From Candidatus Stramentimicrobium fermentans (lineage in GTDB: Bacteria > Atribacterota > Phoenicimicrobiia > Phoenicimicrobiales > Stramentimicrobiaceae), in NCBI GenBank assembly GCA_012520575.1, contig JAAYOB010000016.1, forward strand, positions 1 to 25,974: a stretch of DNA of 25,974 bases, given 5' to 3'. Positions 9,071 through 12,804 of this stretch are shown here, in pieces. Positions within the stretch are counted from its first letter, which is position 1, and every line of letters starts with the position of its first letter. Made by a program: the position numbers and the translations under genes. The notes under the pieces were generated by a model. That model searched no databases. It saw only the letters and a program-made list of their open reading frames with translations, and had not been told where the DNA came from.

Positions 9071-9099
9071 TTGACATTGGGGGAAAGGGAATATATAAT
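9071..9099 (+). promoter_or_regulatory. Consensus sigma-70-type promoter for the T-box operon
   Basis: A perfect TTGACA (9071-9076) and a perfect TATAAT (9094-9099) are separated by 17 nt. The predicted start near 9106 lies just before the T-box leader. Confidence 0.85.
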
Positions 9100-9105
9100 C
9101 CATAG

Positions 9106-9392
9106 TAGAATAAAGATGAAAAATGGAAAAGCAGCAGATTGGAAAACAGGGAGAAGAGTAGATCAAGGTTTGGCATACAGAGAGCCGCAGCTGGTGAAAT
9201 GCGGCTGCAAGCTTGATCGAATTCCACCTTCCTGAAGGTTTTGCATCGTTGCAATATTAGTTGAAATATACAAATTCTATATAACTTTTATTGTACCCGG
9301 AGAATAGATTTATCTATTGAATTAGGGTGGCACCACGTGAGCAAACTCTCGTCCCTATTGTATATCATTGTACAAGGGATGGGAGTTTTTTA
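9106..9392 (+). promoter_or_regulatory. T-box riboswitch leader, specifier most likely Ser (UCC)
   Basis: The leader contains the T-box consensus AGGGTGGCACCACG (9324-9337). Stem I is readable: GATCAAG (9161-9167) pairs with CTTGATC (9212-9218), and GCCGCA (9184-9189) with TGCGGC (9200-9205) under a loop holding GGTGAAA. The specifier-loop pattern AGTA (9157-9160) opposite GAA (9219-9221) is present. Following the usual GAA-N-codon-A arrangement, the specifier is TCC (9223-9225) followed by A, meaning Ser; reading directly after GAA would give TTC (Phe) followed by C. Seryl-tRNA synthetase is the third gene downstream, which supports Ser. Uncharged tRNA-Ser(GGA) should stabilise the antiterminator and switch on the archease-rtcB(-serS) transcript. 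Confidence 0.88.
9344..9392 (+). terminator. Regulated terminator of the T-box leader
   Basis: The 5' arm from AACTC (9344) through TCCCT and TTGTA pairs with TACAAGGGA and GGGAGTT (ending 9387), using a few G-U pairs and a small bulge. A T tract follows. The 5' arm overlaps the bases (GTCCCT) that would close the antiterminator with the T-box AGGG, the normal switch layout. Confidence 0.75.
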
Positions 9393-9410
9393 TTTTAGGG
9401 GGATTTGGCA

Positions 9411-9860
9411 ATGAACGAAAACACGAAAGTGAAAGACTTTAAAGTTATAGAGCACACAGCCGATGTCGGTTTAAACGTGTATGGCAAAGATAAAGAAGAA
9501 TTATTTATAAACGCCGCTCGCGGAATGTTCTATCTTACTATCGGCTCTGTCATTGCAATTGCTCCTAACGAATATAAAAAATACTATAACATTGAAAGCA
9601 CAGGTACCGATGTAGAGGATTTATTGGTGAATTGGTTGGAGGATTTACTTTTTGTCCATAATACCGAGTTCATAATCTTTACCGATTTTCTAATATCCGC
9701 TATGACTGAAGAAATGATTAAAGCAAAGGCAGGAGCAATCAAGCTTAAAGGTTCTCCCTATCAAGTAACCACTGAGATTAAAGCCGTTACTTATCATAAT
9801 TTGCGAGTTTCCCAAGAGCAAAGCGGAAGATGGGAGGGAACTGTGGTATTTGATATTTAG
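9411..9860 (+). CDS. Archease, RtcB activator
   Basis: A 149-residue acidic cytoplasmic protein with the archease signatures FKVIEHTADVGLNVYGKDKE (about 10-29), DVEDLLVNWLEDLLFVHNTE and TEIKAVTYHNLRV, ending in VVFDI where the terminal Asp is a conserved metal ligand in the family. Archease speeds guanylylation of RtcB and lets it turn over many times. I chose ATG 9411 because AGGGGG (9397-9402) lies 8 nt upstream; a TTG six bases earlier is too close to that site. It is the first gene after the T-box leader, with rtcB 81 bp further on, matching their functional partnership. Confidence 0.9.
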   Translation: MNENTKVKDFKVIEHTADVGLNVYGKDKEELFINAARGMFYLTIGSVIAIAPNEYKKYYNIESTGTDVEDLLVNWLEDLLFVHNTEFIIFTDFLISAMTEEMIKAKAGAIKLKGSPYQVTTEIKAVTYHNLRVSQEQSGRWEGTVVFDI

Positions 9861-9941
9861 TCTCTGATACCTTAGAATTTGATTAGAGGATAATAAAAAA
9901 TTCAATCTTCTCATCCTACTTTTTAAAAAGGGGTTGATTTT

Positions 9942-11399
9942 ATGAAAGATAAATGGGAAGGAATATTAAAACAGCAAGGACCTTATATCTGGGACATACC
10001 TAAGGACTATCGCCCGGGAATGCTGGTAGATGGGCGAATTTATGCCTCTCAAAATCTTTTAGCAGATATTATAAGAGACCAGGCTATGGACCAGGTAGCT
10101 AATGTTGCTTTTTTACCGGGGATTGTCGGTTACTCTTTAGCTATGCCTGATATTCATTGGGGATATGGTTTTCCGATAGGTGGAGTGGCGGCTACTCGTA
10201 TAGAAGATGGGGTAATTTCACCCGGGGGAGTGGGCTTTGATATCAATTGTGGGGTAAGACTGCTTCGCTCCAATCTCAAACTAGAAGATATAAAAGAGAA
10301 GTTGAACCACTTAGTGGAAGCTCTCTATCGTAAGATTCCCTCCGGGGTCGGTTCAGAGGGAATTATTAAATTAGACATAGCGGAAACAAAAAGAGTTTTA
10401 GCGGATGGTGCGCAATGGGCTGTGGGGCAGGGATATGGGGAACAAGAAGACATTACTTTTACCGAAGAGAAGGGTAGAATGCCGCAAGCCAACCCGGAAA
10501 TTATCAGTAACAGAGCAATTCAACGCGGACGGTCTCAATTGGGCACCTTAGGCTCGGGAAATCATTTTTTAGAGATTCAGGTAGTTGATAAAATATACCT
10601 TCCGGAAGAAGCAAAAGTAATGGGGCTGAAGGAGGGCAATGTCACTATCTTGATTCATACCGGTTCACGTGGTTTTGGACATCAGGTCTGTACTGACCAC
10701 CTGGCAATAATGCAGAAAGCGGTTCAAAAGTACCGTATTAATCTACCGGATAGGCAGCTCGCCTGTGCACCTGTCAATTCTCCGGAAGGAAAAGATTACT
10801 ATGAGGCTATGTCCTGTGCCGCAAATTTTGCCTGGGCTAACCGGCAGTGCATAACGCATTGGACCAGAGAGGTATTTAGGCAGGTATTCCGCATGTCTCG
10901 GGAAGAATTGGGATTGGAGCTGGTTTATGATGTGGCGCATAATATTGCCAAAATGGAGCTCCATCAATTTGAGGGGAAAAAAGTGAAGTTATGTGTCCAT
11001 CGCAAAGGAGCTACCAGAGCATTCCCCGCTCAGCATCCTGATTTACCCTCAAAATATAAAGAAATTGGACAGCCGGTCTTAATTCCCGGCGATATGGGCA
11101 GCCGTTCCTTTGTTTCGGTCGGCCAAAAAAAAGCCATGCAGGAGACCTTTGGCTCTACCTGTCATGGTGCAGGGCGTGTACTCAGCCGGGGTGCGGCTAT
11201 CAAAGAAGCTAAGAATAGAAACATTGAGGCGGAACTGAGGGCACGCGGAATTATCGTTAAAGCCAGAAGCAGAAAGACACTGTCGGAAGAGGTATCTGAG
11301 GCGTACAAAGATGTGTCGGAAGTGGTTAATGTAATGGACCAGAGTGGAATTTCTGCTAAAGTAGCCCGTTTGCGTCCAATAGGGGTAATAAAGGGGTAG
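9942..11399 (+). CDS. rtcB: RNA-splicing ligase RtcB
   Basis: A 485-residue GTP- and Mn-dependent ligase that joins 2',3'-cyclic phosphate or 3'-phosphate RNA ends to 5'-OH ends, used in tRNA splicing and RNA repair. Metal-site motifs are intact: GGVGFDINCGVR (C103), GSGNHFLEIQ (H208), HTGSRGFGHQ (H239) and VYDVAHNIAK (H333). HRKGATRAFPAQHP and STCHGAGRVLSR (H408, the likely guanylylated His) are also present. Length is typical. The ATG at 9942 has AAGGGG (9929-9933) 8 nt upstream. Archease precedes it; serS follows after 130 bp without an obvious terminator, so all three may be co-transcribed from the T-box promoter. The target RNA in this organism is unknown. Confidence 0.95.
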   Translation: MKDKWEGILKQQGPYIWDIPKDYRPGMLVDGRIYASQNLLADIIRDQAMDQVANVAFLPGIVGYSLAMPDIHWGYGFPIGGVAATRIEDGVISPGGVGFDINCGVRLLRSNLKLEDIKEKLNHLVEALYRKIPSGVGSEGIIKLDIAETKRVLADGAQWAVGQGYGEQEDITFTEEKGRMPQANPEIISNRAIQRGRSQLGTLGSGNHFLEIQVVDKIYLPEEAKVMGLKEGNVTILIHTGSRGFGHQVCTDHLAIMQKAVQKYRINLPDRQLACAPVNSPEGKDYYEAMSCAANFAWANRQCITHWTREVFRQVFRMSREELGLELVYDVAHNIAKMELHQFEGKKVKLCVHRKGATRAFPAQHPDLPSKYKEIGQPVLIPGDMGSRSFVSVGQKKAMQETFGSTCHGAGRVLSRGAAIKEAKNRNIEAELRARGIIVKARSRKTLSEEVSEAYKDVSEVVNVMDQSGISAKVARLRPIGVIKG

Positions 11400-11529
11400 T
11401 ACACAACTGTCTTTCCTTTAAAGAATAAAAATTGTCTATTAGTTACTCGGAATATATTAATCAATTTAATTGAGATTGAATTAAAAAAATAAATTATGCG
11501 TGGAATAGACCAGGAGGATAGGTAAGAAG

Positions 11530-12804
11530 ATGTTGGATTTAAAATTAATTCGTGCCGTACCGGAAAAGGTAAAAGAAGCTCTACTAAAAAGAGGTCAGGA
11601 GGCTGGCGATATTGATTACATTCTGGAGCTTGATGAAAAACGTCGCAAGATTGTTTTTGACTCCAGTGCCTTAAAGCAAGAAAGAAATCAGGTGTCTGAG
11701 GAGATCGCCCGTCTGAAAAAAGAAAAAATGGATGCCCGGGAAAAGATCGAAGCTATGCGGGGAGTATCCAATAAGATTAAGGAACTGGACACCGAAGTAA
11801 AATCTTTAGAGCAGGAGATGGAAAATATTTTGTTAGAGCTGCCCAATATAGTCGACGAGAGTGTGCCGGTAGGACCGGATGAGGGAAGCAATCAGGAAAT
11901 TAGTAGATGGGGAAAGCCCAGAGAGTTTGACTTTGAGCCCCTGCCGCATTGGGATTTAGGTGAGAAATGGGATATTCTCGATTTTGATAGAGGTGCCAAG
12001 ATATCAGGCGCCCGCTTTACGGTTCTAAAAAATGCCGGAGCGAGGCTGGAAAGGGCCTTAATTAACTTTATGCTCGATATCCACACTCAAGAGCACCATT
12101 ATCAGGAAATAATGCCCCCCTTTTTAGTCAATGCCCATACTATGATGGGGACCGGTCAGCTGCCCAAATTTGAGAATGAATTATTTAAGACCAGTGATGA
12201 GCTCTACCTGGTTCCTACTGCCGAGGTTCCCTTAACTAATCTACATCAGGAAGAGATACTATTAGAGTCTGTTCTACCGCTCTATTACACTGCTTATACT
12301 GCTTGTTTTAGGCGAGAAGCGGGTTCTTATGGCAAGGATGTTAGGGGGCTTATCAGACAGCATCAATTTGATAAAGTGGAATTGGTAAAAATCTGTAGAC
12401 CGGAAGAATCTTTTTTAGAACTGGAAAAATTAACCCAGGATGCCGAAACTATCTTACAAAGACTAGAGCTTCCTTATCGAAAAGTGGTTCTTTCTACCGG
12501 CGATATAGGGTTTGCCGCTGCCAAGACCTATGATTTAGAGGTTTGGCTGCCTTTCCAGGTAAAGTATAGGGAGATATCCTCCTGTAGCAATTGTACTGAT
12601 TTTCAAGCGCGAAGAGCCAATATTCGTTATCGAGAAGAAGAGTCAGGAAAAGTCCAGTTTGTTCATACTCTAAATGGTTCAGGTATTGCAGTAGGCAGAA
12701 CCATGGTTGCTATTTTGGAGAACTATCAAGAGCGAGATGGTTCAATTGTGATACCGGATGCCTTGCGTCCCTACATGGATGGATTGCAAAAAATTTCCGA
12801 TTGA
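11530..12804 (+). CDS. serS: Seryl-tRNA synthetase
   Basis: This cytoplasmic class II synthetase charges tRNA-Ser, and tRNA-Sec where present. At 424 residues it has the normal length. The N-terminal antiparallel coiled-coil arm spans about residues 30-105 (rich in K, E and R). Serine-binding TAEVPLT (230-236), motif 2 with [11 protein letters not shown] (260-270), and motif 3 with [16 protein letters not shown] are all visible. AGGAGG (11512-11517) precedes ATG 11530. The 130-bp gap after rtcB holds a possible weak promoter (TTGTCT 11432, TATATT 11453, spacing only 15), so serS could be transcribed both from the T-box promoter and on its own. The neighbouring tRNA-Ser gene reinforces the serine theme. 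Confidence 0.96.

Follow-up and report, generated by a model that had tools for sequence, protein, structure and literature searches.

The 25,974-nucleotide stretch of contig JAAYOB010000016.1 from Candidatus Stramentimicrobium fermentans (Atribacterota), which at its full length is called the window here, carries a serine-specific T-box riboswitch directly in front of the genes for archease, the RNA ligase RtcB and seryl-tRNA synthetase (SerRS, gene serS). We consider it probable that a standard, transcription-terminating T-box controls archease-rtcB-serS as one unit, with serS as its target and archease and rtcB as older partners that are co-induced. The leader RNA is a mechanistically ordinary serine T-box, and the unusual part is the gene content behind it. 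The leader and its parts are:

9071-9099, forward strand: sigma-70-type promoter TTGACA-17-TATAAT, matching the consensus at 12/12 positions, just 5' of the leader
9143-9359, forward strand: T-box riboswitch leader of the transcriptional type (RF00230, 94.5 bits against a gathering score of 93, E 8e-20)
9149-9234, forward strand: Stem I with the conserved AGAGA and GGUGA motifs and the specifier loop (cmscan alignment; fold z -4.0)
9223-9225, forward strand: specifier codon UCC (Ser), from the genome register, its invariance in JS1 leaders and a cognate tRNA-Ser(GGA) gene
9324-9337, forward strand: T-box sequence AGGGUGGCACCACG, in which UGGC (9328-9331) is complementary to the GCCA end (G73) of tRNA-Ser
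9337-9393, forward strand: intrinsic terminator, alternative to the antiterminator (fold -29.6 kcal/mol), with the arm CUCUCGUCCCU conserved in 18 leaders

An earlier note on this DNA had described a complete T-box with a perfect promoter directly before archease-rtcB, and this description holds. The leader clears the gathering threshold of the Rfam covariance model, by a narrow margin, and the other promoter-like matches in the region are weaker and at chance level. The terminator region (9322-9395) folds at -29.6 kcal/mol with a z of -5.03, and 0 shuffles were equally stable, whereas the antiterminator (9322-9362, -9.9 kcal/mol, z -0.8) is alone no better than shuffles. The two structures fold from overlapping sequence and are hence mutually exclusive, and the T-box sequence is conserved in the leader alignment. 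Among the 18 leaders aligned from the class JS1, 13 of the 40 predicted consensus pairs show pair-keeping changes on both sides.

The specifier was read with one register for all T-boxes of the source genome (G000; 1.58 Mb, 50 contigs, eight T-boxes), i.e., GAA (or AAA), one base, and then the codon. At the other T-boxes this register gives CUC before leuS, GUC before valS, UUC before pheST, ACC before a homoserine dehydrogenase gene, AUC before ileS and AGA before an amino-acid ABC transporter. The hisS T-box reads GAC, an Asp codon, and a presumed aspS partner is expected there; with this case included, the downstream genes fit the register reading at all seven. The same register at the window leader gives UCC, which makes it the only one of the eight T-boxes that reads Ser. 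The UCC is unchanged in 18 JS1 leaders (window counted), and the base preceding it varies between U, G and A. A tRNA-Ser(GGA) gene with G73 and ending in GCCA is found on G000:C34 and fits both UCC and UGGC, with the variable T-box base C9331 pairing with the discriminator G73. The register calibration, the invariance, the tRNA-Ser(GGA) gene and the C9331/G73 fit therefore establish the specifier as Ser UCC, as the earlier note had proposed, and UCC matches both a host tRNA and a controlled gene, serS. A Phe specifier (UUC), one base upstream, was rejected, since it does not fit the register used at the other T-boxes, the base preceding UCC is variable in relatives whereas UCC is fixed, and a T-box base C fits G73 and not A73.

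Behind the leader, the following genes are found:

9411-9860, forward strand: archease, the RtcB activator (structure matches 4n2p, 8btx and 8odo, and the related 1jw3)
9942-11399, forward strand: rtcB, RNA ligase, without intein, catalytic Cys at residue 103 (1uc2/4dwq/7lfq, E ~1e-178, residues 13-485)
11530-12804, forward strand: serS, seryl-tRNA synthetase (TIGR00414, 570.9 bits against a cut-off of 301.65)
12846-12931, forward strand: tRNA-Ser(UGA) (ARAGORN; RF00005, 55.5 bits)

The match of archease to 4n2p is nearly full length (E 2.8e-18), and its score of 109 bits against NCBIfam PRK00407 is under the cut-off of 126. Its start is likelier ATG 9411 than TTG 9405, with a ribosome-binding site at about 9396-9403. 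Cys103 of RtcB aligns with C98 of Pyrococcus horikoshii RtcB in the 1uc2 alignment, the motifs DINCGVRL, GSGNHFLE, HTGSRG, YDVAHNI and STCHGAGR are kept, and the metal-binding His motifs are intact. Judged from their sequences, RtcB and archease look intact. In relatives, the rtcB genes at L066, L067/L068, L069 and L074 (G013, G014, G016 and G023) and at L244 (Caldisericota G069) hold an intein-like insert at the catalytic cysteine, which is residue 103 in the window, in open frames of about 930-1010 amino acids. The tRNA-Ser(UGA) is the second UGA copy of the genome, and its D-arm differs from the one in the copy at G000:C4. A tRNA-Ser is found 3' of serS in most relatives too.

The placement of serS third in line, which the earlier note had made, is correct. 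The gaps between the genes are 81 bases for archease-rtcB (9861-9941) and 130 bases for rtcB-serS (11400-11529), and no terminator-like site above chance was found between the three genes. Conserved order, shared strand and short gaps support archease-rtcB-serS as a predicted single operon. Uncharged tRNA-Ser(GGA) would pair through its anticodon with the UCC specifier and through its GCCA end with UGGC. This pairing would let the antiterminator form, so that the polymerase reads through into archease-rtcB-serS, with transcription possibly continuing toward tRNA-Ser(UGA). With charged tRNA-Ser(GGA), transcription would stop at the terminator (9337-9393) before archease is reached. The functional target would be serS, together with serine synthesis in another class of Atribacterota, and archease and RtcB are predicted to rise along with SerRS. 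The suggestion that uncharged tRNA-Ser raises all three genes is in this way supported, as a prediction from serine specificity and gene order.

The arrangement is widely distributed. By inference from a split in gene content and in trees, families f1 and f2 are taken as JS1 and families f3-f7 as the other class. In nearly all Atribacterota genomes with a long enough contig rtcB and serS are adjacent, and archease-rtcB-serS is constant in order and strand throughout the phylum, often with gaps below 30 bases. A search of relatives found the Ser(UCC) T-box directly before archease, 50-272 bases upstream, in 18 JS1 genomes of both f1 and f2 (G000-G004, G006, G007, G010-G014, G016, G017, G019 and G021-G023). 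The archease T-box of G009 is degenerate (31 bits; L062:4164-4343), with an inverted-repeat element (CTCTCCCTTAGAAGGGAGAGG) in place of Stem I and with antiterminator and terminator retained. Additionally, three f2 T-boxes of about 290 bases that do not belong to leuS (L297, L298 and L299) have a second, mostly partial T-box match behind them and are possibly tandem.

In about 14 genomes of the other class, the first gene behind the Ser(UCC) T-box encodes a class V aminotransferase, and a serA-like gene, archease, rtcB, serS, a Gfo/Idh-type dehydrogenase gene and mostly a tRNA-Ser come after it on one strand. The T-box was identified by cmscan in G026, G027, G029, G031, G032, G034, G035, G037 and G040, by coordinates in G030, G038 (operon across two contigs), G041 and G048, and by sequence reading in G028. 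The serA-like product resembles 3-phosphoglycerate dehydrogenase (best model PGDH, 297 bits, under the cut-off of 454), and the models nearest to the aminotransferase are BhcA/PhnW. The aminotransferase (L078, L080, L084 and L079) appears to decay stepwise while the genes behind it persist: its N-terminus and lysine region are lost in several f5 genomes, a remnant is left in G028, and it is gone in f4. In five JS1 genomes (G001, G006, G009, G016 and G021) a separate T-box, which reads UCC in the common register, stands before an aminotransferase-serA pair at another locus. Serine synthesis and archease-rtcB-serS are thus joined behind a single Ser T-box in the other class and have a Ser T-box each in JS1. 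Aminotransferase-serA may have split from archease-rtcB-serS in JS1 or been joined to it in the other class.

The linkage of the three genes exists without the riboswitch in Caldisericota. Where rtcB is complete there, the gene order is again archease-rtcB-serS (L237-L243), the intein-containing L244 shows rtcB-serS, and at L051 the cluster lies behind gyrA and serS starts inside the end of rtcB. T-boxes were found in 0/16 Caldisericota genomes. The simplest order of events is thus that a T-box was placed on an existing operon, and its addition to a pre-existing archease-rtcB-serS operon in Atribacterota is, on the gene orders compared, the most likely history. Several observations weigh against this reading and against control of a single unit. 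Sequences from other phyla fall between Caldisericota and Atribacterota in the rtcB tree, and the two phyla are not joined in the serS tree, which makes convergence a possible origin of the common gene order. Both trees have long branches and few outgroups, and are compatible with shared ancestry as well as with convergence. In f4 (G025 and G039) no T-box was detected before serA-archease-rtcB-serS, where the aminotransferase is also absent, and this family indicates that T-box control is dispensable. Finally, the window gaps of 81 and 130 bases, and the wider rtcB-serS spacing of some f2 relatives (about 500 bases), make an extra serS promoter in the rtcB-serS gap possible.

Such a promoter could go further and supply most of the serS expression, with the T-box governing archease-rtcB alone. 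The 130-base gap is A+T-rich and holds a 9/12 promoter-like match at 11470-11497. However, promoter-like matches occur at chance number (8 found versus 8.2 expected), rtcB and serS overlap or lie close together in several Caldisericota and most of the other class, and the Ser specificity would be left without a serine-related target. We therefore regard this as improbable. Even less credit is due to the earlier note's alternative, in which an older T-box stood on serS and a chance insertion brought archease-rtcB between the two. This idea draws on the fact that Ser T-boxes usually act on serS and on genes of serine synthesis (PMC8002221; PMC2494555), but none of the relatives seen had a T-box directly on serS. 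Archease-rtcB also stands before serS in long-enough Atribacterota loci and in the T-box-free Caldisericota, and we consider the insertion very unlikely.

The coupling itself might also have been selected, with low Ser-tRNA charging acting as an early starvation signal that, via an RNA sensor, deliberately raises RtcB-archease together with SerRS. Its purpose may be to religate RNAs, e.g., tRNAs or rRNA, that nucleases activated by starvation have cut. Retention of T-box-archease-rtcB-serS in the 18 JS1 genomes, and of a version with two more genes ahead of archease in about 14 genomes of the other class, is in line with this, as are the linkage in two phyla and the apparent integrity of both proteins. 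Yet the gene order, as an old operon structure, explains this evidence equally well; Caldisericota hold the order and f4 holds the operon without a T-box, and no damaged-RNA substrate or nuclease is tied to the locus. We thus regard selection for the coupling as a minority possibility, which would add a purpose to T-box control of a pre-existing serS operon and is compatible with it. Of the link between tRNA charging and RNA ligase expression put forward in the earlier note, the arrangement stands as conserved and no one-off, and a selected purpose is possible.

A further T-box of the source genome encloses a tRNA gene, an arrangement shared by the leuS T-boxes of JS1. The Leu(CUC) T-box of leuS (L001:1501-1793; G000:C21:24259-24551) contains a whole tRNA-Ala(GGC) gene, its CCA included, within the Stem III loop, laid out as GGTAGAT-tRNA-ATCTACT 5' of the antiterminator (further loci L313-L329). 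A tRNA-Ala lies upstream of leuS in 20/20 loci scanned. In JS1 it precedes leuS in 17/17 loci, with the T-box motif behind the tRNA in 16, and G013 has lost the 5' half; the three leuS loci of the other class have the tRNA-Ala upstream and no T-box motif. Attenuated and read-through leuS transcripts alike would carry the tRNA-Ala. As at archease-rtcB-serS, the leuS T-box seems to be an addition to genes that were already grouped, in this case formed around the tRNA gene. The genome also contains a lysine riboswitch (109.9 bits; L223:1585-1773 on G000:C1), 3' of a 2-hydroxyacid dehydrogenase gene.

The rtcBA RNA-repair operon of enterobacteria contains rtcA and is controlled by RtcR, an activator protein that works with sigma-54. 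The Atribacterota locus resembles it as a regulated rtcB unit tied to tRNA state, and differs in that the regulator is a T-box RNA, archease takes the place of rtcA, and serS is part of the operon. A usual target of Ser T-boxes is serS (PMC2494555; PMC8002221), and the Firmicutes serS T-box shares with the present one the RNA family, the serine specifier, the terminator/antiterminator switch and the control of serS. Here, however, archease and rtcB come first and serS third, and the host belongs to Atribacterota. Ser T-boxes are also described at serA of Paenibacillus polymyxa, with AGC, and predicted with UCC at clostridial serC (PMC8002221). These likewise place serine synthesis under a Ser T-box, as in the other class and at the JS1 aminotransferase-serA pair, whereas the Atribacterota aminotransferase is of class V and nearest to BhcA/PhnW, and one T-box also covers archease-rtcB-serS. 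Among openly licensed PMC papers we found none linking T-boxes to rtcB or archease and nothing relevant on T-boxes in Atribacteria; the few in which rtcB and archease are mentioned alongside an operon and a tRNA synthetase concern other subjects, by their titles and abstracts.

Most of Atribacterota retains the T-box with archease-rtcB-serS behind it, and a chance insertion is very unlikely as its origin. If our reading is true, tRNA-charging control extends to an RNA-repair ligase and its activator in a phylum with few cultured members, and the first gene behind a T-box need not be its functional target. Atribacterota would then allow a test, at the scale of a phylum, of whether riboswitch regulons grow by capturing an existing operon or by selection for a new link.

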